From: Acidobacterium sp. S8
GTDB taxonomy: Bacteria > Acidobacteriota > Terriglobia > Terriglobales > Acidobacteriaceae
Assembly: GCF_009765985.1 (NCBI RefSeq)
Contig: NZ_LMUM01000021.1
Coordinates: 62,001 to 126,000 of the forward strand
DNA: 64,000 nucleotides
Direction: 5' to 3'
Below, piece after piece: positions 7,496 to 39,100 of the stretch; position 1 is the stretch's first letter, and each line of letters opens with the position of its first letter. The position numbers and the translations under genes are program-made. The notes under the pieces were generated by a model, which did not search any database, was not told the DNA's origin, and saw only the letters and a list, made by a program, of their open reading frames with translations.

Positions 7496-8668
<1,173 letters not shown>

Positions 8669-18012: not shown

Positions 18013-18263
18013 CTACTCTACCTGCAGCACATGTTCTGCCAGAAATTGCTGCATGGCGTCCGGCTTTGAAACGCCGTTACGCCGCCTGTCGCTGTTGTTG
18101 AATTATGAGCGGTAATTGCTGGCGATCCGCCCAACATCGTCTCCGCGCGCTTGGCAAGCAATTCCCTCTCTGCCGGCAGCGTCTCCGGCAATCCATAAAG
18201 CATCAGGTCCAGATTAAATTCGCCGGCCAAAGTGACATCGAATCGCTCGGGACCGTGGGTCAT
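18013..18263 (-). pseudogene. PfkB-family sugar kinase remnant with internal deletion and frameshift
   Basis: The ATG at 18263 overlaps the stop of the upstream permease (ATGA). The first 53 codons read like an intact PfkB kinase N-terminus: FDVTLAGEFNLDLMLYGLPE, ERELLAKRAETMLGGSPAIT, AHN. The frame then jumps straight to NSTTATGGVTAF, which resembles the C-terminal end of such kinases, and after a one-base shift continues KPDAMQQFLAEHVLQVE before a stop at 18013. A full kinase has about 300 residues, so roughly 220-240 codons are missing, including the ATP and catalytic regions. It cannot be an active kinase. Confidence 0.75.
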
Positions 18264-19600
18264 GCGGTCGCATCCGGCAGATGAATTTTTCTGCGGCGCA
18301 GAATCCACAAGGCGATGCCCATCACCGCCCACGCAGTTCCCGCGATGCGCGCTATGGGACCCAGGTTCGTCCAGATAAACAGGCACGTTAGAAAGCCAGC
18401 GGCCGAGATGGTGATCGGCAACCACTGCGCAGATTTGCCAGTACGCCAGCCCAGCACAACCGAGGCGACATTCACCCCCATGAACGCGAGCAGCGCTCCA
18501 TAATTCAACAACTCTGTTCCAAGCTGGTAGCTGAAGAACAAGCCGCCCGCAATGCAGATGCCGCCAATCAGTAGAACATTGTTGCGCGGAATCCGGTTCT
18601 TCGGATGAATCGCGCCAAAGAACGACTTCGGAATCGCGCCATCCTGTCCCATTGCCAGCAGCAGGCGGGCCGCGCCTAGCTGCGACGCCATGCCCGATCC
18701 CATGTTTGCGAGCAGCAACGCAGCATTCACGATCATGAAAAGAATCGGGCCGCCCGCGCGTCCTGAGATGTGCACATACGCGGTGTCGATATCAGGAAAA
18801 GCCTGACCATGCGGCCATACCAGCTGTCCCAGATAAACCTCAATCGCCGCCAGCACGCCGGTAACAAAGCAGGTGAGCACAATCGCACGCGGAATGCTGC
18901 GCGCGGGGTCTTTCGCCTCATCCGTAAGTGTGGAAATACCGTCGAAGCCGATGTACGTGAGCACAGCAATCGATGTGCCTCGAAGTAATCCGCTGCGCGA
19001 GAATGTACTGGGATCGTAGAAAGGCTGCGTATAGAAAGACGCGGGCTGATGCGGCAGATGTAACAGGTAGCGTATCGCAGCGACGACCACCAGAACTATG
19101 ACGATTCCAAGTGCAGCAGCCATGCCGGCATTGATGCGCGCTGAGGTTTCTACGCCGTTCAGATTCAATACCGTAAACAGCCCGGCGAAAAATATCACCA
19201 GGACGAAATACGGAATCTCGGGAATAATATTCTGTGCCGCCTTGCTGCACCATATCGTGCAGATCAATGGATTGAGAATGTAATCCATCGCCATGCACCA
19301 TCCGGTCAGATAGCCGAGGCTCGGATGCAGCTCTTTACTCACATACATAAACGCCGAGCCGCCCTGCGGATACACCCGCGCCATGCGTCCATAACTGAAT
19401 GAGGTAAAGAGCATCGCCACCATTGCGCACAGAATGGCAGTAACGACATGGCCTCGCGCTTCCTGATAGATAACGCCGAAACTCGGCATGGGAGCAGTCG
19501 GCTGAATAAGGACGATGCCATACAGCACCAGATCCCGAAAGCGCAGGCTGCGTCGCAGCGTTACCTGCCCTTCACTCACGGCTGCGGCCTGATTGGACAT
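18260..19600 (-). CDS. APC family permease
   Basis: 446 residues with about twelve helices. Landmarks: LVLYGIVLIQPTAPMPSFGV in helix 1, YPQGGSAFMYVSKELHPSLG, and LTYIGFDGISTLTDEAKDPA in the helix 6 to loop region. C-terminal tail is short and basic. It probably imports an amino acid or amine, though in this neighbourhood an amino-sugar breakdown product is also conceivable. It was translationally coupled to the PfkB kinase now in ruins downstream. The start lies 26 bp from the end of the GH2 gene, so the GH2, permease and kinase read as one operon. Confidence 0.85.
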   Translation of the reverse strand: MSNQAAAVSEGQVTLRRSLRFRDLVLYGIVLIQPTAPMPSFGVIYQEARGHVVTAILCAMVAMLFTSFSYGRMARVYPQGGSAFMYVSKELHPSLGYLTGWCMAMDYILNPLICTIWCSKAAQNIIPEIPYFVLVIFFAGLFTVLNLNGVETSARINAGMAAALGIVIVLVVVAAIRYLLHLPHQPASFYTQPFYDPSTFSRSGLLRGTSIAVLTYIGFDGISTLTDEAKDPARSIPRAIVLTCFVTGVLAAIEVYLGQLVWPHGQAFPDIDTAYVHISGRAGGPILFMIVNAALLLANMGSGMASQLGAARLLLAMGQDGAIPKSFFGAIHPKNRIPRNNVLLIGGICIAGGLFFSYQLGTELLNYGALLAFMGVNVASVVLGWRTGKSAQWLPITISAAGFLTCLFIWTNLGPIARIAGTAWAVMGIALWILRRRKIHLPDATA

Positions 19601-19626: not shown

Positions 19627-22296
19627 TTACCGACTTGCGATCGCTTTCTCTGAAGAGAGGTGCAGGGTCTGCTCAGGAATGTTCCAGCCCGACACGACGA
19701 CAACGGCATTCTGCGGAGTATGTGGCGGCAGAGTCGCCGTCAGCACGCGCGATTCTCCCGGCATAAGCGAGACATAGTTATCAGACCACATGACGGGCGC
19801 AATATCTTCACCGTGAGCGTCACGCGCTGCTACCGATACCTGGAAGGCCAGCGACTTCGATTCATTCTGCAACCGCACCTGTACGGTTCTTCCCTCTGCG
19901 GATGCCATTACATGCGCAGTCACCTTGGTCTTTGGCAAAGACATGAGCTCCGTCATGTTCTCATGCTGAATCGCCGGCGTATGGGTGTAGTTTGTCTTTG
20001 CCCAATCGAAGGTCGTCAGAGTCGAAGGCACCCAGTAAAAGTTACGGCTGACTACTTCCCCCGATGCTTTCTTAAGCGTCAGATCCACGAAATAGACCTT
20101 CGAATCGGAAGAGAAAGCCGTATCGGGAATCGCGATCGCACGCTGCGAGGTATCTGCGTCCAGCGTCAGCTTCGATTCCTTGCTGAATACTTCCTTCTGC
20201 TGCAGATCATAGACCTTCGCCGCAACTTGAAGTGTTGGCGAGCTTTGATACGTACTGTTCACCACGACGACGCTGTGATCGTCGTAAGAATACTGCACAT
20301 GCACCGGCTCACAGGCTTTCTTAGTGCCGTAGTACCCGCCGCCAGCATCGAGATAATAGTCATACAGATGCCAGATCGTCGAAGGCCACGCATTGTTCAG
20401 CATCCACTGGATGACGCCCGTGGACGTGTACTTATTCCGCGAGTAAGCCTCGAACATTGCGCGCTCGCCGTTATAAGTCATCGCCTGCGCAACGCGTACA
20501 TAGTCGCTGAGGTTCTCCGGCGTGCCGTAGGTCGCCTTCATCGCATCGTCAAAAACAGTGAGCGTCTTAAAGCCTCCACCACCGTTGTGCAGCGACCACG
20601 CCGGGCTTGTTGTAGGCCATGTGGCGTCCTCCGGCAGGAATCGGCGCAGGCTGCTGATATTGGGAATCGCAGGTCCAGGGCTCGTCTCCGTATTGAAGCC
20701 GTATCCGCCGCCATGCTTATCCGTGTCCACATACCAGTATGATGGCGCCACGTAGTCGTAAGGCCCGCTCATCTTCACGCCGCTCTTCCCGCTCACAGTG
20801 GTCGGCGTTGCAGAGGCGGAAGACAAAGTGGGATTCGGCCAGTGTGTTTGTGATTCCACATCGAGATACATTTTCTCTACATCCGCAGGTGGCGGATTAT
20901 CGCTGCCATTCAGCCACACCAACAAGCTCGCGTGCTGACGAATGCGGAGCATCTGCGATTCCAGTGAAGCCTTCGCTACCTGATAATTTTCCGGCGTCCA
21001 CTTATCCCAGTGCTCCCACTGGTCGCAACAGCACCAGCCCAGCATCACCAGGATTCCCTGCTCATCCGCAAGCTGGAAGAAATCTTCTGTCTCCAGTTTG
21101 CCTTCCAGCCGAATTATGTTCAGATGCATGTCGCGGACCAGTGCGAATTGATCGCGCAGCCGATTCGGCTCTTCGCGCAGCAGCATGTCCTGTGACCATC
21201 CCGCGCCGCGAATCAGAATCGGCTTGCCATTCACGCGGAAGAGGCGATATCCCTTGTCCGTCATCTCTGACGTCATCTCGCGAATCCCAAAGCGCACCGA
21301 CTTTTCATCGGACACTTTGCCGCCTTGAGTAAATTTGAGAGTGAGAGTTTCCAGATGCGGTGTTCCCATCTGGTAAGGCCACCAGACATTCGGATTCTTT
21401 ACCTGTAACTGCTTATACGTCTCCGGATCGAAGACGACTGTCTTGTCTTCATGCGGCTGCAACTCCACATTCTGCTCGATGTGAATACCTGCCACTGTGC
21501 CGGTTACATTTCCACTTACAGCCTTGTCGGTCGCATTATGCAGCTCCGCATACACCGTCAGATCAGCCTGCTTCAGCGAAGCATCTGTAAAATGCGCCAC
21601 TGCCATGGGCGAGCGCAACGCGACTGGTCCACTCGACACCAGATCGACCGGCCCCCACAAGCCCGTGTTCTTATCCGGCGGACACGGGTTCCAGTCGACC
21701 CAGTTGATTCCCAGGTCTTTCTCTGTCGGAGCAAACGTTTCGACCGCGACTACATTCGCCTTGCCCGCCACCGCGGCATCCGTCACATCAAACTCATACG
21801 TTCTATACGCGCCCGCTACCTGTGTGGAATCAGCAATACGCTTCCCATTCACCCAGATATTCGCGCGATAGTTGATCCCGCCGAAGCGTAGCCATAGCGT
21901 CCGTCCCTTCTGGGCTGTGGGGACGGTAAATTCCTTGCGATACCACCACGCGCAGCGGTAAGGACTGTCATCCGGCATCGGCAGGTTGGCAAAGTTATGC
22001 CCAACCGGATAAGTGGTTCCGGGAATGTCGCGCAGATTCGTTCCGAAGTAAAGATCTTTATACGTGCCAGCCGCCACCTGCACAGCCAGCACTGTCGCTG
22101 GCACTGCAGTCGTATACCAGCCTTCAGGATGAAAGCTTGTGGTCGAAATCGTTGCGCCTTCAGTCTGCAACTTGCAGGCCGATTGCACGCTCCAGCCTTC
22201 GTGAAGCGCCAAGGCGGAAGAAGCATCTGCATGAGCCGCAAACGAAACAAACATAATCAAAACGAGTGCAACGGAAGTGACACAACGGCGCAGCAT
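19627..22296 (-). CDS. Secreted GH2 glycosidase, exo-beta-D-glucosaminidase (CsxA) type
   Basis: 889 residues from the ATG at 22296; GGAGG lies 11 bases upstream, and the longer frame would start inside it. Signal peptide: MLRRCVTSVALVLIMFVSF, cleavage near AHA-DA. GH2 order is sugar-binding domain (about 40-220), Ig-like domain, TIM barrel (about 345-560), then C-terminal Ig-like domains. The acid/base motif is WLNGSDNPPP with Asp466 in place of the usual Asn-Glu, and the nucleophile motif is GFNTETSPGP with Glu537. Both match exo-beta-glucosaminidases (CsxA Asp469/Glu541) rather than galactosidases. It should release glucosamine from chitosan oligomers; mannosidase-like relatives are the alternative. 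It sits directly downstream of a broken TonB receptor. Confidence 0.88.
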   Translation of the reverse strand: MLRRCVTSVALVLIMFVSFAAHADASSALALHEGWSVQSACKLQTEGATISTTSFHPEGWYTTAVPATVLAVQVAAGTYKDLYFGTNLRDIPGTTYPVGHNFANLPMPDDSPYRCAWWYRKEFTVPTAQKGRTLWLRFGGINYRANIWVNGKRIADSTQVAGAYRTYEFDVTDAAVAGKANVVAVETFAPTEKDLGINWVDWNPCPPDKNTGLWGPVDLVSSGPVALRSPMAVAHFTDASLKQADLTVYAELHNATDKAVSGNVTGTVAGIHIEQNVELQPHEDKTVVFDPETYKQLQVKNPNVWWPYQMGTPHLETLTLKFTQGGKVSDEKSVRFGIREMTSEMTDKGYRLFRVNGKPILIRGAGWSQDMLLREEPNRLRDQFALVRDMHLNIIRLEGKLETEDFFQLADEQGILVMLGWCCCDQWEHWDKWTPENYQVAKASLESQMLRIRQHASLLVWLNGSDNPPPADVEKMYLDVESQTHWPNPTLSSASATPTTVSGKSGVKMSGPYDYVAPSYWYVDTDKHGGGYGFNTETSPGPAIPNISSLRRFLPEDATWPTTSPAWSLHNGGGGFKTLTVFDDAMKATYGTPENLSDYVRVAQAMTYNGERAMFEAYSRNKYTSTGVIQWMLNNAWPSTIWHLYDYYLDAGGGYYGTKKACEPVHVQYSYDDHSVVVVNSTYQSSPTLQVAAKVYDLQQKEVFSKESKLTLDADTSQRAIAIPDTAFSSDSKVYFVDLTLKKASGEVVSRNFYWVPSTLTTFDWAKTNYTHTPAIQHENMTELMSLPKTKVTAHVMASAEGRTVQVRLQNESKSLAFQVSVAARDAHGEDIAPVMWSDNYVSLMPGESRVLTATLPPHTPQNAVVVVSGWNIPEQTLHLSSEKAIASR

Positions 22297-22324
22297 GCAG
22301 ATACTTTCCTCCAATATTTCCTGC

Positions 22325-25300
22325 TTAAAAGTTGAACTTCAGGCCAAGCTGTACGATACGTGGCTGATGGGCGCTCAGTACCGTTCCATAAGTCGCGCCA
22401 TCGTTCACCGTCGTGTCGACTCCAGCATAGCTTGTGTGGTTGAAGGTATTAAAACTCTCCAGCCGGAACTGAAATGAGCTCTGCTCATACACCTTGATAT
22501 TTTTCATCAGCGAAATATCCCAGTTCTGCTGTCCCGGCCCAAGAATGGAATTCTTCTTCGCATTTCCGGGCGTGATTTGATCGCTCGGCGGCCCTGCAAA
22601 TACCGAGGTGTTGAACCATGTCGAATTCACGTCTCCGCTATGCGGCGCGCCGGAATTCGGATTGCCTACCTGGTTCGGACGTACCGTATTTCCCAACACT
22701 CCGGTGTTCAATCCAATGCCGCCGGGATCAGAGCCATCTGACTCCGACGGATCCATCCAATGCCCTGAGTTCACTGCAATAATCCCCGAAAACTGCCATC
22801 CGCCCAGCGGATGGCCCTGCAAGTCCGTGCTGCTCTTTGAAGAACGGCAATTGATAAACAAAGTCAGCGTTGAACACCTGCCGCTGATCGAAACGCGCGT
22901 AGCTGTACTCGCTCTTCAGGTCATAGGTGTATTGCGGCACCGTGTAATTCGGGTCGCAAGGCACATTGCTCAAATTCTTTGACCACGTGTAGTTGATCGT
23001 CAGCAGCGAATCAGCGGTAAAACGCTTCTGCAGGCTCGCCTGCAGCGAATTGTAATTGGAAATGAAGATCGGCAGGTACATATCAATTCCCGAATAGCCG
23101 ATGTAAGGGCGCAGCGGATTCGCATAATTCTCGTTCCCTGAATTGATGCCACCCGGCGTATACACATCAGGATAATTGGCAGCGCCGCTATAACTCGCAT
23201 ACGCTCCGGCCACCGGTTGATTGATGTCCGCTACCGCCAGCAGGTGCGTGCCTTTGCTGCCGTAGTAGCCGAGATCCGCAATGATGTTATAAGGCAGTTC
23301 CTTCTGGATATCGAGATCCCAGTTCTGCGTGTAGGGCTGTTTGAACTTTGGCGCTGTTGCACTCAACGGCAGCGGCGTGTTGTTCGGCGCAGCATGTGCC
23401 GATCCCGGATTATCCATCGGCGCATTATAGATCGTCAAAAGGTGGATTGCTGAAGACACTATTCTCTACAAATCCCACACCCGGCGATTCGATGAACATG
23501 CCGTAGCCGCCGCGCACTGACATCTTGCCTTGTCCCATCGGATCCCATGCGAAGCCAATGCGCGGCGCGAAACCCAGATTCACCTGGTTAGAAACAGCCG
23601 TGCCATAAGGCGAATTTTTGCCGCCGATAATGATTCCGTTCAACGAGTCGTAATTCGGATTAGTGTTGCTCGTGCCATCGCACGGCATCGTATCCGGTGT
23701 GCAGATATATCCGGAGTTATCCAGCACCGGCGCGTGGCTCGGATCGTAGGTTGCAGGATCGAAGCTGGTCGCATGCCCCTTTGCATCTGTGGGCTGGCGG
23801 AATAGCGAATAGCGAACGCCGTAGCTCAGCGTCAGGTCAGGACGCAGACGAAATTCATCCTGCGCATAGCCTCGAATTCATTCTGATCGATAATCGCCCT
23901 GTTATCCACCTGCGACTGCTGAAAATAAGTCGACTGTCTCAACAGGAGTAGGCATACTCCTGCCGCCATTCTGCTGCGGGATCATCGTTCGTGGTATCGG
24001 GGTCGCCGAAATAAGCAGCCGGTGTTACCTGGTACCGAAGGTTCCAGCGTTGTTGCCACCTGCATTTTCTGACTTCTGATAGTGGTAGTAGGTGCCGCCA
24101 AACTTCAGCGTGTGCCGTCCGAGTATCCACGTCAGGTTGTCGAAGATGTTGTGATTCTTATTGTAATCCTTGTAATCACCAAATCCTGAGATGCTCGCGA
24201 GCGAAGTGCCGAACGACAAGCTGGGTATGCGATTCAGTGTCTCCGGGTATGCCAGTGTGATCGCACCCACCACATCCGGAGAATTGGCTGCCGCAAACTG
24301 ACCAACGTTCGTGCTCAACACCGCACCATATGACCACGCATATTCCAGCTGGTTCAGTAGTGTTGGCTTGAAGACGGTATTCAAGCTCGCCGCAATGTTC
24401 TTGCCGGGTGATTGGGTGCTTGTTGCCGCGACATTCGGAATCGGATTGCTATTGAACAGACCGCCGCCTTCCACCGTCGGAATCGTATCGTTCATGATGC
24501 GGATCCAGCCGGACCACTTGCTGTTGAACGTGTGGTCGACGCGTCCGATCTCCTGCCGGTAATTAAAAATATTGCTCGAGTTCGACGTCAGCGTGTCGCC
24601 AATCGGATCCTGCGGCAGATTCACATGCGAGTACACATCTTTCAGGTAAGCCAGCGCTGCCGGATTCACCATGTTCGCCGGAATGCTGGTCGTCGACGCT
24701 CCTGCCGGGCAGTACGTATTGCCACTGGCATCCGTCGCCAATGGCGCAGTGCACACTGGAAAGGCAAAGTTATAAGCGCCCTTCGCACCGCGCTCATCCG
24801 CGTTGGGCGCGATACCTGTTGAGGGGCTCGATTCCACCACGCGGCGCACCTCCTCTGAGAAGAAGAAAAACGTTTTGCTCTTATCTACGTTGTAGTGGCC
24901 TGGAATGAAGATGGGCCCGCCAATCGTTCCGCCAAAATCGTTGTAGCGCAGCGGCGTGCGGTCAAGCGCAGGCGATTGAAAGTGCTTATTCTCCCAGGTA
25001 TTCGCATCGAGCACATCATTGCGGAAGAACTCATATACGCCGCCGTGAAAACTTGATTTACCCGACCGCGTGATGACGTTGATCTGGCCGCCTGAGCTGC
25101 GCCCATACTCCGCGTTGTAGTTGCCGCGCAGCACCTTGAACTCGTCAATCGCATCCACGCTCGGATAATTCAGAAGCGTAAAGTTTCCGCCGCGATCTAC
25201 GTTGTCTGCGCCATCCACTGTCCAGTTGTTGCCGGTGCCGAAGCTGCCGTTCAGCGAGAAGGCCGTCTCGTTCGTCGCGCCACCCGGCGCGCTCACGCCC

Positions 25301-25858
25301 GCATAGAGAAAATCTCCACCCAGGTCTGAAGTCACGCCCGGCATCAGTGCCACCAGCTCTTCGTAGTTGCGGCTCTGCAGCGCCAGCTCACGCACCTGCG
25401 TGCCCGTAATCAGACCAGTAGCGGCAGCCGGTTGCGTATCCACCTGCAAGGGATTAGCCTGCACCGAGACGGTTTCTGTAGCCGCGCCAATCGGCAGCAC
25501 TTCGTTGAACGTGAGCTTGTCGTTCACATTCAGCGTGATCCCCTACTTCGGACACTTTCTTGAAGCCTGCCGCTTCCACTGTCACCATGTACTTGCCAAT
25601 CGGCAGCTGCGGCGCAGAATAGTCGCCACCTTTATTCGTCGTCACAACGCGCAACACCGCGCCGCGATCCGTATTGGTAATCGTGACTTTCGCTCCTGGA
25701 ACTACAGCGCCCGAGTTGTCGGTCACTGTACCCAGAATCGTTCCCGTCACTTCCTGCGCTACGATCGCACCACCCAGCGCCATGACGATGAACATTGCCA
25801 GCACAGCCGCCACTCGCCCGCGGTGACAGAGATAGCCTGCATGAATTTCGGACAGCAT
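22325..25858 (-). pseudogene. Oar-like TonB-dependent receptor, frameshifted pseudogene
   Basis: Joined across frames this is a receptor of about 1,180 residues. The start ATG at 25858 has GGAGG seven bases upstream and a signal peptide. The regulatory domain reads VTGTILGTVTDNSGAVVPGA. The plug has ITGTQVRELALQSRNYEELV and GRSSGGQINVITRSGKSSFH, and the barrel ends in the aromatic tail IVQLGLKFNF. Reading must change frame near 25541 (extra base in a four-base C run), 24030, 23943, 23877, 23440 and 22840; all look like single-base events. Each piece still aligns with the family, so decay is recent or the assembly is poor here. Neighbouring long receptors are intact, which favours true decay. 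It was likely the outer-membrane importer for the GH2 product. Confidence 0.85.
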
Positions 25859-25942
25859 GATGAGACCTCCAAAATTGCGGGGAATTGCTCCGGTCCTCAT
25901 CTTTGGGCTTTCCCCTGAGAAATTCCGATCTAAGAACGTCGG

Positions 25943-25964
25943 AATATTGAAACGTTTGAATATT
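25943..25964. promoter_or_regulatory. LacI-type operator upstream of the receptor pseudogene
   Basis: A 22-base near-perfect palindrome centred on CG: left half AATATTGAAAC, right half GTTTGAATATT, with one mismatched pair. It lies 85 bases upstream of the receptor start and just after the end of the LacI gene, where a repressor of this locus would be expected to bind. Confidence 0.7.
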
Positions 25965-26022
25965 GGAAATAGAGGTCACAACGGGCGGTTGTCAAGAAGA
26001 AAATGAATGCGATAAAGATCGT

Positions 26023-27093
26023 TTATTTGGGCCGCGTAGAATTGCGGATCACGATCGAAGGAGGCAGGAGCTTTAGTACAGGCTCGTTTGCGTCGCTCTC
26101 CTCTTCTCGTTCAAGAGACTTCAAGATCCATTCCGTGCCGATCATGCCCATCTCTTCCATCGGCTGGCAGACCGTCGTAATCGCCGGAGTGCTGAAGGCT
26201 GCCGGTGGAACACCATCAAAGCCAATCACGGAGCAGTCTTCCGGAACTCGCACGCCGGTCTCACATAGTCCGCGCAATGCGCCAAGCGCCGTCAAATCAT
26301 CAAACGCCATCAGCGCCGTAAACTTGCGTCGCGACCGAACCAGCTCCCTCGTCAGCTCCACTCCACCATCAAAACCCGAATTCGCATCGAGCATCGCGGG
26401 CAACTGACGCACCAGCTTCGGGTCAATCGTCAGCTTCCGCTCTGCAGCAAATTGCTCGATGCCACGCCAGCGATTCACGCTGTCATGCAAACTCTCGGGT
26501 CCGCGTATGAACGCAATCTTCCTGTGTCCAAGTGCGTAGAGATGATCGAGAGCTTTATACGCACCCGCGGCGTTGTCCACCAGTACCGAGCTGATGCGGC
26601 TCTCTGTCAGATCGCGCCCGATCACTACCGTGGGAATTTTATGCTTCTCCATGTCGGCAAGCAGATCGGTCTCCGCGAACAACCAGTTCGCAACAACGAT
26701 CAATCCCTCCACCCGCCGGTCGAGAAGCATTCCCAGATAGCCCTCAAACTGCTTGCGCTCGTTATTCGCATCCATGATGATCGGCAGGTATCCCGTCGGA
26801 TGCAGCGCCTTCTCAATGCCCCGCAAAATCAGCGTGCAGAATGGATCGGAGATGTCGAAGATCATCACGCCGATCGTTCGGCTTCGGCGGCTGCGCAGCG
26901 ATTGTGCGAAGGCATTCGGCCTGTATCCGAGCGTGGCAGCCGTCCTGCGAATGTGCTCTTTCGTGCGCGCCGCAACATAGCGCGAGAGTGGCGCTTCATT
27001 CAGAACGATCGAAACCGTCGAAGCAGAAAATCCGCTCTTGTGTGCCACATCCAGGATGGTTACGCGGTTACTTGTTTTCTTGCGACCGACCAA
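26023..27093 (-). CDS. LacI family transcriptional regulator
   Basis: 356 residues with a TTG start at 27093. HTH and hinge: VTILDVAHKSGFSASTVSIV, then LGYRPNAFAQSLRSRRSRTI. The periplasmic-binding-like effector domain follows (IGVMIFDISDPFCTLILRGI, HRKIAFIRGPESLHDSVNRW, FDDLTALGALRGLCETGVRV, VIGFDGVPPAAFSTPAITTV). The effector is probably a sugar released by the neighbouring glycosidases. It lies between the two GH2 modules on the same strand, with a matching operator just downstream. Confidence 0.93.
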   Translation of the reverse strand: MVGRKKTSNRVTILDVAHKSGFSASTVSIVLNEAPLSRYVAARTKEHIRRTAATLGYRPNAFAQSLRSRRSRTIGVMIFDISDPFCTLILRGIEKALHPTGYLPIIMDANNERKQFEGYLGMLLDRRVEGLIVVANWLFAETDLLADMEKHKIPTVVIGRDLTESRISSVLVDNAAGAYKALDHLYALGHRKIAFIRGPESLHDSVNRWRGIEQFAAERKLTIDPKLVRQLPAMLDANSGFDGGVELTRELVRSRRKFTALMAFDDLTALGALRGLCETGVRVPEDCSVIGFDGVPPAAFSTPAITTVCQPMEEMGMIGTEWILKSLEREEESDANEPVLKLLPPSIVIRNSTRPK

Positions 27094-27208: not shown

Positions 27209-29533
27209 CTACACAGTCTCCGCCTTAGCCTGTCGAATCGCAATCTCTACCGTCTGGCTTCCCAGCCTTGGGTGCTTCGCCGTCAGCCGAACCGTCCCGG
27301 CCTCTTCTTTCGCGCGCACCCACACCGCGCCCGTACCGCCGATCAAGCCGAACGGATTATCTCCAATCAACTCCGCCGGACCTTCGAGTGTCAGCACGAT
27401 TGGATCGTTCGCAAAAGGCCGGATCGCATCAAACTCATCGGTCACTCGCAGAACCACGCGCGTCGTATCCGCGCCATCGCCCATCAGCTCATGATCGTCG
27501 GCAAGAATCGCGAACTTCTGATCTGCTCCCAATCCGGAGAGCGTCTTTGAAATCACCTGCTTGCCATTCAAATACCCGTCGATGCGCAGGTCGCCCCATT
27601 TCCACTCCGACTTCGTCAGGTCCACGCTAAAAGGCGCATATTTCAAATGACCAAACTGTTCCTTGTCCGGATCAACCTCAGCTAACGGCTTCCAGTCACC
27701 GTTATTTTTTACAAAGAGTTTGAGATGATCGCAGTTCGAACAGATCATCGCCACGGTAAAGTGCGTAGCCTCATCGCTCGATGCCCAGTGGAACGCTGGC
27801 TCCAGCACAATCTCTTCGTCCGGATCGCACTGCGACTTGTAAAAACCCGCAGCTGGCTTCGGTTCGCGGAAGATATCGAAAACACCGTGGTAGCAGATGC
27901 GGTCCCCCGCGCCGAAATCACTGTGCGTGTTGTAGTCGAAGGCGCACCACGCGATGCCGCCCGCGTACTGCGGGTTCGAGGCCAGCTGGTTATGGACCCG
28001 AGCATGCCGAATCGTGTGCTCACGCTGATGCGCATCGTCATCGATCGTCTTTGTCGGGAACGTATGCCCCACAAACTCCGTGTTCAGATAACGCGGATGG
28101 TTAGGCTCCTTGAGCGGCCAGCCGAAATCGTTCATGGTAAACACATCTTCCAGAAACTCCGATTCCTGGAAGTAGCGAATACCGCCCGTCTGCCGCGTGG
28201 GATCGAGCTTGTGCGCCATCGCATTCGTGCGCGTGTAGAAGTCGTGGTTGTCGCGCGATTCGTTGATGCGCACGCCCCACAGCACAATGGACGGGTGATT
28301 CCAGTCGCGCCGGATCATGCGGCTCACGTTGTCGACGGAAATATCCTGCCACGGCTTATCGCCAATGTGCTGCCAGCCCGGAATCTCTTCCAATACCAGT
28401 AGCCCATACTCATCGCAGGCATCCAGAAAATGCCGCGACTGCGGATAGTGCGACGTGCGCACGATGTTGCAGTGAAACTGCTTTCGCAGAATATAAGCGT
28501 CTCGCTTCTGCGCCCGTCCCGGCATCGCCTGCCCGACAAATGGAAATGTCTGGTGCCGATCGAGCCCGCGCAGCTTGATGATCTTGCCGTTCAGCTCAAA
28601 TCCATGGTCTGTAAATTGCGCTTCGCGAAAACCGATGCGCCGCGTGTCTTCATCCACCACATTGGAGCCGCGCAGCAGCTGCACCTTCACCGTATAGAGC
28701 TTCGGACTCTTCAGATCCCAAAGTTGAATCCCGGTCAGCTTTCCAAACGCAATTACATGGCTCGCCGGTTCCGCAGCCGCACCTGACGGGGCAACTTTCT
28801 GGGTAGCTTTCGCCACTGTCTTCTCGCCATCGAGCAGCGTAGCCTCCAGCGTCAACGTCTCGCGCAAAGCTTCCAGATGCTGCACGAAGCACTCAACATC
28901 GAGTGAGGGCGAACCGCTCAATGAATCCTTGGGCTGAGCAAAAATATTTTCGATGAAGGTCGCAGGAACCACGCGCAACGACACTTCGCGATAGATGCCC
29001 CCAAAGGTCAGGTAATCGATCTGATATCCGAATGGAGGGATATCCGGGCGCTCCGTCGAATCCACATCCACAGCCAGCACATTGTCGCCATCGAAATTCA
29101 AATGTGGCGTCAGCTCAAATGAGAACGGCGTATAGCCGCCTTTGTATTCGCCCAGCCTCTGCCCATTGAGCCAGACAGTCGAAGCCGTCATCACGCCCTC
29201 AAAATCTACAAAGACTCGCTTGCCGCGCGCTTCCGCAGGCACGCGAAATTTGCGCCGGTAAAGCGAAACAAACTCATACTCCTTGTCATCGAATCCGTGC
29301 CACGGAAGCTTGATATTGGTGTGCGGGACCACCACGCGATCGAATCCGGAGTCATCGAACGTAGCCTCATGGCCACCCTCAACAAACTTCGGGCTATACC
29401 GCCAGCCGCGATTCATCGCGAGAACCATGCGGCCCTCGCTACCTTCGTGCTGCTCCTGCGCAAACACTTTGCCGCCCACTGCCGCTCCAGCCAGCAGTGC
29501 GCTGCTGGTCTTCATAAAATCGCGCCTGTCCAT
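27209..29533 (-). CDS. Tat-exported GH2 glycosidase, beta-galactosidase-like
   Basis: 774 residues from the ATG at 29533, four bases after GGGAGGAA; the frame opens at 29554 but that start would precede the binding site. A Tat signal is evident: MDRRDFMKTSSALLAGAAVG. GH2 domains follow in order: jelly-roll sugar-binding (RKFRVPAEARGKRVFVDFEG, STVWLNGQRLG), Ig-like, TIM barrel with acid/base Glu425 (LWGVRINES) and nucleophile Glu486 (YLNTEFVG), then extra C-terminal beta domains. Beta-galactosidase is the default call; glucuronidase or another exo-activity is possible. The catalytic pair is canonical Asn-Glu, unlike the upstream GH2. It carries a regulatory 15-mer in its 5' leader. Confidence 0.88.
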   Translation of the reverse strand: MDRRDFMKTSSALLAGAAVGGKVFAQEQHEGSEGRMVLAMNRGWRYSPKFVEGGHEATFDDSGFDRVVVPHTNIKLPWHGFDDKEYEFVSLYRRKFRVPAEARGKRVFVDFEGVMTASTVWLNGQRLGEYKGGYTPFSFELTPHLNFDGDNVLAVDVDSTERPDIPPFGYQIDYLTFGGIYREVSLRVVPATFIENIFAQPKDSLSGSPSLDVECFVQHLEALRETLTLEATLLDGEKTVAKATQKVAPSGAAAEPASHVIAFGKLTGIQLWDLKSPKLYTVKVQLLRGSNVVDEDTRRIGFREAQFTDHGFELNGKIIKLRGLDRHQTFPFVGQAMPGRAQKRDAYILRKQFHCNIVRTSHYPQSRHFLDACDEYGLLVLEEIPGWQHIGDKPWQDISVDNVSRMIRRDWNHPSIVLWGVRINESRDNHDFYTRTNAMAHKLDPTRQTGGIRYFQESEFLEDVFTMNDFGWPLKEPNHPRYLNTEFVGHTFPTKTIDDDAHQREHTIRHARVHNQLASNPQYAGGIAWCAFDYNTHSDFGAGDRICYHGVFDIFREPKPAAGFYKSQCDPDEEIVLEPAFHWASSDEATHFTVAMICSNCDHLKLFVKNNGDWKPLAEVDPDKEQFGHLKYAPFSVDLTKSEWKWGDLRIDGYLNGKQVISKTLSGLGADQKFAILADDHELMGDGADTTRVVLRVTDEFDAIRPFANDPIVLTLEGPAELIGDNPFGLIGGTGAVWVRAKEEAGTVRLTAKHPRLGSQTVEIAIRQAKAETV

Positions 29534-29548
29534 CTTTCCTCCCACGGA

Positions 29549-29563
29549 ATGCAACCGTTTTCA
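29549..29563 (-). promoter_or_regulatory. LacI/cre-like operator before the GH2 gene
   Basis: Read on the coding strand: TGAAAACGGTTGCAT, a CG-centred imperfect palindrome that nearly fits the LacI/CcpA consensus. The identical 15 bases recur at 35724-35738 upstream of a TonB receptor. It sits just ahead of the ribosome-binding site. Confidence 0.55.
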
Positions 29564-29661: not shown

Positions 29662-32600
29662 TCAGAACTCGACGCGTGCCGCGAACTGCGCAAGTCGCTT
29701 GTTGGTCAACAACGTTCTAGCCTGTCCGAAGTTAGGGCCATTGTCGAGCGTGGAGTTGATCGACTGCGCATCGAAACGCACGCTATTCGTTACGTTAAAC
29801 ATCTCCCAGCGCAACTGTACTTTTGCCCGCTCCGTTATGGCAAAAGCCTTGTTCAGGCCTGTATCCCAGCTAAAATATCCGTCGCCACGGAGCGGGTTGC
29901 GCGTTCCCGAACCACCCGGGAGCGTGAAGTCGAACGAGTTAAACACAGCCTGCGGATCGGCAAAGCGCTGCGTGAGCTTGCCGCGTTTCGCTGCGCGCGA
30001 TGGAATCGGCGCCACCTGCGTCGCATATCCCTGGATGTCCCAGTTCGTTGGATAATACGCGCCGTTGTTTACAAGGAAAGGAAATCCGCTGGTCCAGCGG
30101 ACGATCCCAGTCGTCTGCCATCCACCAATCACCGCATTGGTCAGCCGGTTCGCATTCGAGAGAAACTGCTTCCCGCGCCCAATGGGCAAATCCCAGATGT
30201 AGTTCGCATTGATCTGGTGCCGCGCATCATAATCGGAAACACCATAAAGCTGGTTCGGATTCCAGGTGTTCATGATCTGTGCATAGTTCGTCGAACCGGA
30301 GCTGTTTAGCCGCTCCGCCTGCGAGGTAATATCCATGGACTTTGAGAAGGTGTAGTTGAAGTCAGCCTGCAGCCCCGATCCAAACTGCTGGCGATACACA
30401 ACCTCCAGCGCGTGATAGTTCGAGTAGCCAATCGAGCGCCACGCATACAGGGCTGAATACTGATCGTGATAGAAGCGGAACGACGGATACGAGCCGTTGG
30501 GATTGACGCCTGCGCCGCTAAGCGCATCCGGAGCGTCTAACTCAAACAGCGCATAAGTCTCGTTGTACTTGTTCTGCTGGAACAACTCGTAAACATTCTG
30601 CGTTGCCGACAGCGGACCCCAACCAATGTCAGCACCATCCAACTGCGGGAACAGCGATTCCCAGTAAGCCACTTTTTGCACGCTGTTCACCGGTACCTGC
30701 GCGCGCGCCAGCTTCGCCATCGCTGCTGCCGGCCCGAAGTAAGGAGTCCCTGCGGCCGTCAGATTGATCGGCATGGCCACGTCTTCCTGCGCCAGCAGCC
30801 GATGCGCCAGGCGCCCGACATATGAAATCTCGATCGAAGATCCGTTCTTCAATTCGCGCGCAATCGAGAAATCGATCAGATGCGAATAAGGAGTCTTGAT
30901 CTTCGAGTCCAGCCCCCAGCTGATGGCAAACTGCGCCGGATCGGGCGTGGCCGGAAAGCCCCCCGCAGGCGCAGCGGGCAACACGCTCGCCGGAATCGTA
31001 TTGATATCTGTGAAGCGCGGAGCGGTCGCAATGTTCACCGTCCCAACCGGATTGGAAATGTTGCTCGATAGCCCGTATGAACCCGTGGTGTCGAATGTAT
31101 TCACCGTAGCCGCGCCAAAATGGTCATACACCAGCGAATAGCCCGCACGGATGCTGCTCTTGTTGTTGCCGAAAATCTTGTTCAGGAAGCCCCCCTCCGG
31201 CGTTGGAGAATAAGCCAGTGCCAGGCGTGGCCCAATATTGTTCTTCTCCATATTCCAGAAATCCGGTTTCCCGTTGTAACGCCCATTCAGATCGAATGAC
31301 ACATCGCCGATCGCGCTGGCAGCCCCGCCGCTTATCCCCTGCTGCGCACTCTGCTGGTAATAATCCGTAAGCGCAAATGGCTGACACACACCAGCGTTAA
31401 CCTTGCACGTGCCCACCTGTGTGCCGGTTGTCTCCGCCGGGCTTTGCAGCAGCGACCACCGCAGACCATACGTCAGCGTCAGGTTTTTGAGCGCCTTCCA
31501 TGAGTCCTGCGCGTAAAACTCATACTCGTTCCAGCGATAGTCTCGTTTAATCACCGTGCCCAGCGGCAGCGCCGTGCCCTGTTTGGTGTAGTTGTAAATG
31601 GCATCGCCCTCGGTGATGATACCCACTAGCCCCAGCAGCGCATCGTTGTACTGATTTACAAAAACCTGGTTCACCGCTGGATAGCCATATGCCGCCGGAT
31701 CAAATGGTCCGCCGTTACCTGCGACGGTAGATCCATTCGAGAGCCAGCCCTGATTCATCTGTCCATCTGGATACGAGTTGGCATCGCTCGCTCTTTGGTC
31801 GTCGATGAAGCGAATATTCACGCCAAACTGGAAGCTGTGGTCATGCTTCGTCCACGAAAGGTCGTCCACCACGTTCTGCACCGGAATGATGTATGACGTG
31901 CTGCGGGAAAACGACTCCGGCTGCGCCACCGCGGCCAGATAAATCTGCGGTTCTTTGGAAATACCCGCGTTGTCCACGCCCTGGCGTGTAAATCCATAGC
32001 GCGCCGTGTTCACCAGGTTCGGAGTCAGCACCGCCGTATAGCCGACCGCAAGCCCCCTGCTGTTCGTGAGCGTGGAAGTCGATGGCGGCTGTCCCGGAAA
32101 AGCAGGCGGCGTCGGCTCATTGTCACCCTGCAGGTTTCCGCGCCAGAAGATCGTGTGGTTGCCGTTTTTCGTGATGTTCCAGTCCATGCGCGCAATGTAG
32201 GTGTCGTAGCTGCGATGCAGGGTGTAAGGGAACCGGAAACCGCCGGTGTTATAGGTATCGCCCTGGGTCGGGTCATTCGCCTGTGGATACTGAGAATAAA
32301 GCTGCAGGATGTTCGGGTTATCTCCAATGCCCTGCGGATCCATCCCTTGAATCTGCGATGGCGCCAGGTTAAAGATCGAACCGCTATTCGTCTGATACTG
32401 GATATTGCCGTTGCGGAAGCTCTGCAGCGGCACGATCCCGGCATTCACACTCTGCCCTTCGGTATCGCGGCGGCCTTCATAGTTCAGGAAGGCGAAAAGT
32501 TTGTCGCGCAGGATCGGTCCGCCCACCGCTGCTCCAAACACGTTGCGGATGAGCTTCGGCGGAGTGTTCGGCTCACCCGTGGCCAGTTGTTGCTGCTTAT

Positions 32601-33435
32601 TGAAAAAATCATTCGCTTCAAACAGGTTGCTGCGGTTGTACTCATACACCGCCCCGTGAAATTGATTCGTGCCGCCGCGCGTTATCAGTCCAACCTGCGC
32701 ACCTGAAGAGCGCCCTTCGGCCGCGTCGGGATTGCTCGTCGTTACGCGAAATTCGCCAACCGAATCCTGCGTCACCCGCAACACGCTGGTAAAAGCATAG
32801 CCATTATTCAGGTCATTCACGTCCACGCCATCGAGCGTGATGTTCGATTGATCGCTGCGTCCGCCATTCACTGTGCCGCTGCGTGAGTCCTGACCGTTGT
32901 TGCCCACAGCATTCGTTCCATTGTTGTCGTCTGTGCGCCCCAGGTAGGTCACACCAGGCTGCAGCGAAAGCAGATCCGGAACATTTCTTCCTTCAATCGG
33001 CAGCGACTGCACCTGCTTCTCGGCAAACGCATTACCCAGCGTCGCATCGGTCGTGTTCAGCACCGGCTGCACATTCGTGTCGACCGTCACCTGCTGCGTC
33101 ACGGTCCCTACGGCAAGTGCCACATCTTCGGTCGCCGGCTGCCCGACCAGCAGATTCATGCCCTGCTTCTCGACTGGCGAAAACCCTTCGGCGCTGACTT
33201 TCAGGGTGTAATTGCCCGGCGCCAGCTGTAGAAATTGATATTCGCCACTGCTATCGGTGCGCCCCTCGCGGGCAGCCCCGGTTCCCGTCAGAGTCAGCGT
33301 TAGTTGCGCGCCCGGCACAACCGCACCACTGGCATCGGTTACATGACCACGCAGCGAAGTCGTCGCCTGGCCAAAGACAAAAAGGGAGCAACACAAAGAC
33401 ATCAAAAAAACGCCTACTACTCGCGCAAATCGCAT
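29662..33435 (-). CDS. Oar-like TonB-dependent receptor with carboxypeptidase regulatory domain
   Basis: 1,257 residues, intact. AGGAG lies five bases before the ATG. Signal peptide is RVVGVFLMSLCCSLFVFGQA. The CarboxypepD_reg domain occupies about 25-115 (LRGHVTDASGAVVPGAQLTL, GNYTLKVSAEGFSP). The plug follows with LPIEGRNVPDLLSLQPGVTY and GRSSGAQVGLITRGGTNQFH. The rest is an outer-membrane barrel ending RLAQFAARVEF. Such receptors import oligosaccharides or other large substrates with TonB energy. A terminator follows and a LacI-type site lies upstream. Substrate unknown, but the next gene downstream on this strand is a GH2. Confidence 0.93.
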   Translation of the reverse strand: MRFARVVGVFLMSLCCSLFVFGQATTSLRGHVTDASGAVVPGAQLTLTLTGTGAAREGRTDSSGEYQFLQLAPGNYTLKVSAEGFSPVEKQGMNLLVGQPATEDVALAVGTVTQQVTVDTNVQPVLNTTDATLGNAFAEKQVQSLPIEGRNVPDLLSLQPGVTYLGRTDDNNGTNAVGNNGQDSRSGTVNGGRSDQSNITLDGVDVNDLNNGYAFTSVLRVTQDSVGEFRVTTSNPDAAEGRSSGAQVGLITRGGTNQFHGAVYEYNRSNLFEANDFFNKQQQLATGEPNTPPKLIRNVFGAAVGGPILRDKLFAFLNYEGRRDTEGQSVNAGIVPLQSFRNGNIQYQTNSGSIFNLAPSQIQGMDPQGIGDNPNILQLYSQYPQANDPTQGDTYNTGGFRFPYTLHRSYDTYIARMDWNITKNGNHTIFWRGNLQGDNEPTPPAFPGQPPSTSTLTNSRGLAVGYTAVLTPNLVNTARYGFTRQGVDNAGISKEPQIYLAAVAQPESFSRSTSYIIPVQNVVDDLSWTKHDHSFQFGVNIRFIDDQRASDANSYPDGQMNQGWLSNGSTVAGNGGPFDPAAYGYPAVNQVFVNQYNDALLGLVGIITEGDAIYNYTKQGTALPLGTVIKRDYRWNEYEFYAQDSWKALKNLTLTYGLRWSLLQSPAETTGTQVGTCKVNAGVCQPFALTDYYQQSAQQGISGGAASAIGDVSFDLNGRYNGKPDFWNMEKNNIGPRLALAYSPTPEGGFLNKIFGNNKSSIRAGYSLVYDHFGAATVNTFDTTGSYGLSSNISNPVGTVNIATAPRFTDINTIPASVLPAAPAGGFPATPDPAQFAISWGLDSKIKTPYSHLIDFSIARELKNGSSIEISYVGRLAHRLLAQEDVAMPINLTAAGTPYFGPAAAMAKLARAQVPVNSVQKVAYWESLFPQLDGADIGWGPLSATQNVYELFQQNKYNETYALFELDAPDALSGAGVNPNGSYPSFRFYHDQYSALYAWRSIGYSNYHALEVVYRQQFGSGLQADFNYTFSKSMDITSQAERLNSSGSTNYAQIMNTWNPNQLYGVSDYDARHQINANYIWDLPIGRGKQFLSNANRLTNAVIGGWQTTGIVRWTSGFPFLVNNGAYYPTNWDIQGYATQVAPIPSRAAKRGKLTQRFADPQAVFNSFDFTLPGGSGTRNPLRGDGYFSWDTGLNKAFAITERAKVQLRWEMFNVTNSVRFDAQSINSTLDNGPNFGQARTLLTNKRLAQFAARVEF

Positions 33436-35552: not shown

Positions 35553-36130
35553 ATTTTCGCCGGCGAAAATCGCCGCTCATTTTCGGCACGGCAATCCCTC
35601 CCGATCTCGGAATTAAATACATATGAGAAGTGTGCCTAAACGATACAAATTCGTATACTTTGCCGGTGCCTATTTTAGAAGAGTCTGCCAATCATGGCCA
35701 CAACCGCATTTTCAGCGTCGCTCTGAAAACGGTTGCATGTTCATGAACTAAATATTTTGTAAAAAATATCTGCAATGCCATACTTAATCGATTTATTAAG
35801 GTATTAAGCGCATATTTACCCTTGAAAAACACACATCGCCGTGTCTCATCAGGGTCCAGAACACTTTCTTTGCTTGACAATCGAAAACTCCAACAAGCTT
35901 AATATTCAACGCGGGAGAATCTGTCCGCACGACTAATTTGCTCAAACCGTTTACTCAAAGGTATTCTGCGACTTTTCAAATTTTTTATGGATGACTTTTC
36001 TGCTGTTCGCAGACGGGCAAATTCAGGCGAAGATAAACCAAACTATAAGTCTATACAGGTTAACAACTTAAACGAACATTCACATCGGCTCGAAATCGCC
36101 GGTGTATTTCATCAGGAGGCAATAAAGAGC
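35553..36130 (+). other. Long AT-rich leader before the second TonB receptor
   Basis: 578 bases without a credible gene, visibly richer in A and T than its flanks. It holds the 15-mer operator (35724-35738), a related CAACCGCATTTTCA just before it, an AT-rich inverted stretch near 35752-35772, and a promoter candidate TTGACA (35874-35879) with TTAAT-type -10 near 35898-35903. AGGAGG precedes the receptor ATG by 12 bases. The 5' untranslated region would be over 200 bases. Confidence 0.5.
35724..35738 (+). promoter_or_regulatory. LacI/cre-like operator, copy of the 29.5-kb site
   Basis: TGAAAACGGTTGCAT, identical to the site in front of the Tat-exported GH2 gene (29549-29563, coding strand). 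It lies upstream of the promoter candidate for the TonB receptor at 36131. Confidence 0.55.
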
Positions 36131-39100
36131 ATGAGACGCCAACGTATTTATCTGGCGCTGATCGCCCTTGCTACGGTTTTTCTACTGTGGCATCCGGCTT
36201 TCGCCCAAAAAATTACGGGCTCGATCGCAGGCACGGTCACCGATACCAGTGGTGCAGCCGTTCCCAGCGCGACCGTAACCGTCACCAACACTGCAACCAA
36301 TAAGATCTACACCGCCACCACCGATTCCCAGGGCGGCTACACCTTCGCTGATCTGCCTGAATCGACCTACCAGGTCGGGGTCAAGGCCGCGAACTTTAAA
36401 GAATTCGTCACCAAGGGCGCAGTCGTTCACGTCGCCACCACCACCACCGTTGACGCCCAGCTTCAGCTCGGCAGCGTCAGCGAATCGGTGACCGTCCAGG
36501 CCAACGCCATTCAGGTACAAACCGACAGCGCCGCGCTCGGCCAGGTCGTCGATGGCACCCAGGTAAAAGAACTCCCGCTGAACGGTCGCAACTTCGTCCA
36601 GCTCACCCAGCTTCAGCCCGGCGTTTCGGCAGCCAACGGCTTCGTCAACACCGGCAAGGGCCTCAATGGCGGCGTCGATATGTCCGTCAACGGCAACCCC
36701 ACCACCAACAACCTCTTTCTGGTGGACGGCGTTAACAACAACGACGTGGGATCCAACCGCACCATCCTCATCTACCCGTCGAATGAATCCATCGCCGAGT
36801 TCAAGATGCTGCTCAACAGCTACGGTCCGGAATACGGACAGGCTTCCGGCGGTATCATCAGCATCGTCACCCGCAGCGGCAGCAACGCCTTCCACGGCAG
36901 CGGCTTTTACAGCGGCCGTAACGACGTTCTCGATTCCTACACCTATTTCTCGGCTCCCAATGCCGGCAAGGGCCTTCCTCTCGACGGCAAGGACAAGGAG
37001 CGCCGCAATGACTGGGGCTACTCCATCGGCGGTCCCGTCATTAAGGACAAGCTCTTCTTCTTCTGGAGCGAAGAGTGGAACCACGAAATCAAGGGCCGCC
37101 AGGTCAGCGCCTGCGTTCCTACTGACGCGGAGCGCGCCGGCGACTTCTCCACACTGGGTTGCGGCAACAGCGTGCTTCCCACCTTCAACCAGAGCAACCC
37201 GATTGTCGCGGCCAATGTAACCCCCGGCACCTACAAGATCAATAATGTCGATCCGGCAACGGCGACCATGCTGCAGCTGCTGCCGTCGCCTAACCAATCG
37301 ACCAACGGCAACAACCAGAACTGGTCCACTTCGCTGCCTACCGGCCTCTTCTGGCGCCAGGAAAACGTGCGTGGAGATTATGATCTCAACCACTCCAACC
37401 ACATCATGGGCCGTTACACGCAGGACACATGGTCGAACCCGGCCTTCAATGCCGGCTACTGGGGCGACACCATCTACCCCGCTTTGAACAGCAACTGGGC
37501 ACAGCCGTCCAAGTCGCTCACCGCTCACTGGACCTCGACCATCAAATCCACGTTGGTCAACGATGCTGCCTTCAACTACTCCAACAACCGGATTGATATC
37601 ACCGCCGGCGGCACCAACCCGGGCCTTTTGCCCCAGGTCACCGCGGCCATTCCTACCCTCTACTCTGAATCACTCAAGCACAGCCCGTTGGGCGTGCCTT
37701 CCGTCAACTTTGGCAACTACGGCGGCACCACTTCTCTCCAGGCTCCGTGGCAGAACCAGCTCGACATCTACTCCTTCCGAGACGATCTTTCCTGGATCAA
37801 GGGACAGCACAGCCTTAAGTTCGGCGGCTTCCTCGGCTTCAACGGAAAGAATGAAGACGTCAACAGCTCAACCGGCGAGCGTCCGACCATCGGCAGCGTA
37901 GCCATCGCCAACGGCGGCGCCGATACCGGCGACACCCTGGCGAACCTGGAACTCACCGGAAACGTCTTCAACATCGGTGAAACCTCCACCAACATCCGCG
38001 CCCAGCTCCGCTGGAGAGACTACGAGTTCTACGCGGGTGACACCTGGAAGGCATCTCCGCACCTTACGCTCGACTACGGCGTGCGCTACTCCCTGCTCTT
38101 TGCGCCTTTCCAGCCCAATGACCAGATCACCAGCTTCCAGCCGCAGCTTTACGACGCCAGCAAGCCTGCCTCAGACGCCTGCAACGGTCTCTGGGTAGCT
38201 CCCGGCAAAGATCCCTGCGGTGCGGCAAACGCGCAGTTCGGAACCAACTTCAGCCACGGCGTCGACGGTCCAAACCGCTCGCTCGTCAAGAACGGCTATC
38301 ACAACTTCGCTCCCCGCCTCGGCATCATCTGGGATCCATTCGGTACCAGCAAGACTGTCCTCCGCGCAGGCACAGGCCAGTTCTATCAGCGTGAGCGCGT
38401 TTCGCGTTACACCCTGGTTGCCAACGCTCCCTTTGCCTTGAACGCCAGCAACTATGCTCGTACCCTCGACGGCGCCACGCCCCCCAGCGTTACCGGAACG
38501 GCCAGCCCCGCCGGCGGTGCCGACCCGGCTGCCCTGCTGCCTAACTCCTGGCAGTGGAACCTTACCCTCGAACAGGCCATCGGCTCCGACACCACCTTTC
38601 AGGTCGGCTACGTAGGCAACCGCGGCATCCACCTCACCAGCAGCTACGACGTCAACAGCGTCACGCCGGGCAACCTGCTCGACGCGACCTTCGCTCCCAG
38701 CGGCTCGGTCAACAACTTCCGTCCGTTCTCCAACTACTCCACGCTCACCTATTGGGCGCACACCGGCAACTCCAACTACAACGGACTGCAGGCCGTGCTC
38801 AAGAGCCGCATCAACAACTCTCTGACACTCGGCGCAGCCTACACTTGGTCACGTGCCATGGCCGATATCGTCACCGATGACTCCGGCGGCGGTATGGGCT
38901 CGCAGTCTCGCACCTACTATGCCGATCCTCGTCTCGACTACGGCGTTTCGGATGTCAACCGTCCGAACATGTTCGTAGCCAACGTGACTTGGTTCACCCC
39001 CAAGTTGCAGGGTGCCAACGCCATTGAGCGCGACGCAATCGGCGGCTGGGAAGCCACCGGCATCATTACCGCGGAAAACGGCAACAACTTCACCATCTAT

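Follow-up and report, generated by a model that had tools for sequence, protein, structure and literature searches.

A TonB-dependent receptor gene, probably inactivated recently, in a LacI–GH2 locus of Acidobacterium sp. S8

Acidobacteria encode dozens of TonB-dependent outer-membrane receptors whose substrates are mostly unknown, and one such gene in the 64,000-nucleotide stretch analysed here (the window), from the soil bacterium Acidobacterium sp. S8, has six lesions and no single open reading frame. Is this gene dead in the cell or only in the assembly, when was it lost, and what does its loss say about the genes around it? We consider it very probable that this is a genuine, recently inactivated receptor gene of an oligosaccharide locus with the order LacI – receptor – GH2 – permease. 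It is ordinary gene decay, seen unusually clearly; a literature search found no work joining Acidobacteria, a TonB-dependent receptor and a pseudogene.

The gene (Table 1) has a likely ATG start at 25858 with GGAGG upstream, as read from the sequence, and its larger fragments are still family-like, as the first-pass annotation had claimed of every fragment. The CarboxypepD_reg domain scores 66.4 bits (cut-off 32.3) and the plug domain 35.2 bits (cut-off 23.9), and among the larger pieces scanned three match PF25183, at profile positions 1-325, 506-688 and 691-838, with 207.8, 156.3 and 129.5 bits respectively (curated cut-off 30). The domain order and the length of ~1,180 codons are shared with other Acidobacteriaceae CarboxypepD_reg/PF25183 receptors, and the position between LacI and GH2a is that of the receptors of the congener G002 and of G166 and G016, which belong to other genera. 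The window gene differs from these in that its frame is broken six times, and its protein as a whole is only 60-65% identical to the receptors of G002, G166 and Granulicella, a set with 73-91% identity to one another. The two other receptors in the window (29662-33435 and 35987-39673) are indeed open, as ORFs and profiles both indicate.

Table 1. Features of the receptor locus, in window coordinates.
Feature	Position	Strand	Basis
TonB-dependent receptor pseudogene, CarboxypepD_reg + plug + OMP_b-brl_4, six frame-breaking lesions	22325..25858	-	ORFs, profile search, alignments
N-terminal fragment: signal region + CarboxypepD_reg (PF13620)	25454..25900	-	ORF, profile match
500-aa fragment: plug (PF07715) + first part of barrel	24025..25527	-	ORF, profile match
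63-aa ORF; its end spans the stretch from lesion 2 to lesion 3	23939..24130	-	ORF
100-aa fragment, between lesions 4 and 5	23425..23727	-	ORF
243-aa barrel fragment (PF25183 506-688)	22728..23459	-	ORF, profile match
178-aa C-terminal barrel fragment (PF25183 691-838)	22325..22861	-	ORF, profile match
Lesion 1: one base gained, G4 run (C4 on +)	25540..25543	-	Frame-aware and nine-relative alignments
Lesion 2: one base lost, exact site unsure	24026..24036	-	Frame-aware and nine-relative alignments
Lesion 3: one base lost	~23949..23953	-	Frame-aware and nine-relative alignments
Lesion 4: one base lost	~23869..23870	-	Frame-aware and nine-relative alignments
Lesion 5: 11 bases fewer than nine intact relatives (2 mod 3 lost)	23435..23437	-	Alignments, nucleotides by eye
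Lesion 6: one base gained, near G3 run	22808..22817	-	Frame-aware and nine-relative alignments
LacI-family regulator, intact	26023..27093	-	ORF, profile, comparison
GH2a, exo-beta-D-glucosaminidase type, intact; start TTG 22314 or ATG 22296	19627..22314	-	ORF, profile, comparison
Amino-acid-permease-type transporter (PF13520), intact	18260..19600	-	Comparison
GH2b, second GH2 enzyme, TAT-like signal, intact	27209..29554	-	Comparison
LacI-type operator-like palindrome, downstream of -35-like TTGACA	25946..25961	-	Alignment

Frame-aware alignment of the minus strand of positions 22200-26000 with receptors in loci L046, L047, L048 and L033 (the last cut by the end of its locus; L034, with a wrong 27-aa frame, was left out) reveals six frame changes common to all four comparisons, each within about 30 bases of the place originally given for it, and no in-frame stop in any path. 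Extra frame changes at 25850 (L046 only) and 25796 (L047 only) lie in the poorly conserved signal-peptide region and were discounted. Lesion sizes were taken from an alignment to nine intact relatives, with the nucleotides counted by eye. All six had been described as single-base changes, and this stands for five of them, including the first, which is in the expected run of four C on the plus strand, one base being gained at 25543-25540 (G4 on the minus strand). It does not stand for the lesion near 23436, which fits an 11-base deletion: between a PPF motif and the triplet that aligns next, the nine intact relatives have seven residues (21 nt) where the window has 10 nt. The six lesions add up to a multiple of three, and the first and last fragments are therefore in the same frame.

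The genes flanking the receptor are clean. GH2b, LacI, GH2a and the permease are full length, 80-90% identical to those of G002 nearly end to end, and in the same order, and all six lesions are inside the 3,534 nt of the receptor within a five-gene block of 10,980 nt (p = 0.0011 if thrown evenly). The -35-like box and the palindrome are similar in all five aligned loci, two of which are without a receptor; the palindrome is one window site (two matches, one per strand), and 12 of 100 shuffles are its equal at three mismatches, so it is conservation and not rarity that argues for it. GH2a resembles exo-beta-D-glucosaminidases, its best solved relative being 2vzs (E = 4.2e-166, residues 27-884 aligned), in which GSD and FNxETS stretches align with GH2a (FNTETS) and of which the 1032-residue chain after 896 is outside the alignment. 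In the 2vzo chain an E stands in place of the aspartate of GSD. These two stretches presumably hold the catalytic residues of GH2a; a literature search on catalytic residues of this type found nothing. Because of the exo-beta-D-glucosaminidase-like neighbour, the receptor probably served amino-sugar oligosaccharides.

The other receptors of the source genome, an assembly that is 99.99% complete in 38 contigs, provide a control. A PF25183 profile search gives 67 matches (65 of 93 candidates scored), one being the window pseudogene and two being second pieces; the 64 other receptors listed amount to about 221 kb of open frame, of which 60 were judged from the match table alone (long frame, no stop inside the match), so that lesions outside the profile would be missed. 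They include one frameshift (G000:C8, L112 at about 8290-8300, before the last ~200 residues), one nonsense mutation (G000:C4, 49961-52654, an in-frame TGA at L085 7474-7476 between open stretches of 649 and 511 codons), and one fragment (G000:C23, L084 7672-8814, 381 C-terminal amino acids), the upstream part of which was not seen with the two best query receptors. One more receptor begins at a contig end (C16). At one frameshift per 221 kb, 0.016 would be expected in this gene, where six are seen; the figure assumes an even rate and so argues against error spread over the assembly, though not against error confined to one place. It is not unusual for a genome to have a single broken receptor: the congener G003 has one with a TGA among 65 PF25183 matches, and G016 has one with a TAG among 33, plus several short pieces of 139-354 aa, with no broken receptor among the 65 listed of 140 candidates in G182. 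Six lesions in one gene are the exception among those seen.

The strongest evidence for a real dead gene is comparative, as across four congeners (G002, the source genome, G001 and G003) the receptor is respectively intact, broken by six lesions, reduced to a ~38-codon remnant, and absent. The G002 locus reads GH2b-LacI-receptor-GH2a-permease with a receptor frame open over 1,201 codons, and syntenic copies are open in G002 (L046), G166 (L109) and G016 (L069); multiple disabling lesions set against intact syntenic orthologues and intact neighbours identify the window gene as a pseudogene, in agreement with the initial reading. G001 has GH2b-LacI and then GH2a, and the only receptor sequence between them is a stretch matching the last 38 residues of the window receptor (55% identity; L133 11457-11561), which is itself frame-broken and into which the promoter region runs straight. 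The G001 genome is in 560 contigs and 77% complete, with GH2a split over two contigs, and a single short contig is what the reading of its locus depends on. G003, a single complete contig, has GH2b-LacI-GH2a (L132 9487-13030) followed by a LigT-type gene, with no receptor match and no permease at the locus; the nearest permease homologue elsewhere in that genome is 51% identical. We infer that the absence in G003 is a loss and not the original state, because G002, the window, G166 and G016 all have a receptor there. All four congeners keep LacI and the two GH2 enzymes, with 78-90% identity to the window and, across the four, 81-86% for LacI, 76-84% for GH2a and 84-90% for GH2b (G001 being represented by a 572-aa part of GH2a only), and a tree from these three proteins does not resolve the branching of the four genomes.

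A random substitution in the receptor frame gives a stop 3.5-3.7% of the time, and the zero stops therefore allow at most 80-84 neutral substitutions (95%), which bears out the earlier proposal of a recent loss. Between the window and its congeners the flanking proteins differ at about 10-22% of their amino acids (the permease by 10-13% from G002 and G001), and synonymous sites between the window and G002 are saturated, with distances reaching several changes per codon. With so few neutral substitutions allowed against this divergence, the window gene cannot have been dead since the common ancestor, and the loss in G001 is therefore a separate event; inactivation of the window receptor is both recent and independent of it. 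The dN/dS comparison suggested in the first-pass annotation was made and gives a branch value of 0.111 versus 0.068 (2dlnL 2.42, not significant), a test without power because of the saturation, and in five control runs (2dlnL 0.60-5.07) the control genes vary as much as the receptor. Relative-rate counts for window and G002 with four outgroups (91:100, 91:95, 101:81 and 79:82) show no acceleration, and so give no support to the idea that faster decay explains why identity to G002 is low. At columns otherwise invariant the window departs in 28 of 410 and L046 in 16 of 398 (six taxa), or in 4 of 190 and 1 of 187 (13 taxa); the extra departures of the window fit either slight decay or simply its deeper branching in the gene tree.

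The barrel has a history of its own. The G002 receptor is 73-76% identical to the Granulicella and G166 receptors and only 64-65% to that of the window, unlike the flanking genes of window and G002, and for the barrel an AU test rejects the grouping of the window with G002 (p = 4.3e-6; this grouping was taken from the flanking-gene trees, with the whole-gene tree already seen). The N-terminal 198 columns do group the two, weakly (80/81). L047 and L106 are one contig entered twice, as are L048 and L107, and only L047 and L106 shared a tree (permease). It is probable that the barrel was exchanged in one lineage, either that of the window or that of G002 (L046 4084-7689 versus 22325-25858). We had thought the window barrel to be the foreign one, but the G001 remnant resembles the C-terminus of the window more than that of G002 (by eye, about 35 residues), and either of the two may be the newcomer. 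Among 398 genomes of the family no donor of the divergent barrel was found with a match above G002, using DNA or the middle fragment, though some other genomes have shorter pieces of higher DNA identity (G259 and G182, 73% over about 930 nt).

Receptor and GH2a are not tightly coupled in other genomes. We surveyed 20 loci with a GH2a relative, 19 of them distinct (G002 appears twice) and the window not included, 12 of which were taken as further loci from the better GH2a matches and not at random; a gene counted as a receptor according to its best match in the query set. A receptor of this subfamily lies between LacI and GH2a in three of the 19 (G002, G166 and G016) and in none of the 12 further loci. 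G173, one of the 12, has another type of receptor in this position, and in G032 LacI and the receptor run the opposite way from GH2a. In the remaining 14, GH2a is not directly preceded by a receptor on its own strand: four have an opposite-strand receptor nearby (G233, G206, G168 and G192), G098 has one further off, G224 has a same-strand receptor behind another open frame, and in G021 GH2a is at the edge of the stretch with its upstream side out of view, while seven (G114, G250, G066, G198, G143, G003 and G001, with its remnant) show no receptor upstream within the listed stretch. Conversely, the receptor is retained in the Granulicella loci L047 and L108, where nothing adjacent matches GH2a. 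The GH2a relative of G066 (G066:C2:384257-386923, 67% identity) has one TGA and one TAA in the match and is perhaps a GH2 pseudogene, and many more distant GH2a relatives likewise show one stop inside the match. The suggestion that loss of the importer for this GH2 locus marks a niche change is not supported by the survey, nor by the four congeners, which all keep GH2a and LacI, two of them without the receptor.

Could the gene be intact in the cell, and the indels be false ones in a low-quality patch of the contig? No in-frame stop is present, five of the six changes are of one base and two are at or near short G runs, and zero stops beside six indels leans somewhat towards indels, a pattern that a poor-quality patch would give as well. 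However, the runs are only 3-4 bases long, too short for homopolymer error, one lesion has the size of an 11-base deletion, no damage is seen in the flanking genes, the assembly is nearly complete with a single frameshift in 64 other receptors, and two congeners are without the same gene; we regard an artefact as very unlikely, and the initial view that poor assembly is a weak explanation is borne out. That programmed frameshifting joins the broken frames into a working receptor is scarcely credible, even though the larger fragments still match the family, as recoding would be needed at six sites, in both directions and across the 11-base gap, and nine aligned relatives are open.

A dead receptor may also have been removed by selection, for example as a port for phage or bacteriocin, instead of drifting from disuse. 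The two other congeners that are without it, one with a decayed remnant, the retention of GH2a, GH2b and LacI, and the different history of the barrel and its flanks are in keeping with such selection, but there is no evidence of a phage or toxin, and GH2a is mostly without this receptor among the loci examined, so that simple redundancy suffices; we think selection unlikely, if worth bearing in mind. A broader reading, which we offer only tentatively and with doubt, would make the LacI–GH2 locus a hot spot for the turnover of receptors: within one genus a barrel was exchanged between lineages, and at least two independent events destroyed or deleted the receptor, with promoter, operator, repressor and GH2 enzymes left in place. 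If true, turnover that hits the receptor (and in G003 also the permease) would suggest that selection acts against this protein at the cell surface.

For the favoured reading, a recently inactivated gene, the course of events may be simple. The first lesion, about 105 codons in, would end the protein before the plug, so that no barrel would be made, and further small indels would have gathered in the dead gene without selection. The cell would manage without the receptor, the substrates or products of the GH2 enzymes entering another way, for example through another of the full-length receptors, of which the genome has about 60 more; GH2a, with its own ribosome site, would still be translated, and may suffer polarity from the untranslated receptor message. 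The gene is like other bacterial pseudogenes formed by small indels in its several insertions and deletions, intact orthologues and intact neighbours, and differs in having no nonsense codon yet. With four congeners in which the receptor is, in turn, open, recently disrupted, all but deleted and missing, the locus provides a natural test of the pairing of receptor and enzymes, and it warns against reading loss of a substrate or a change of niche from a dead receptor.
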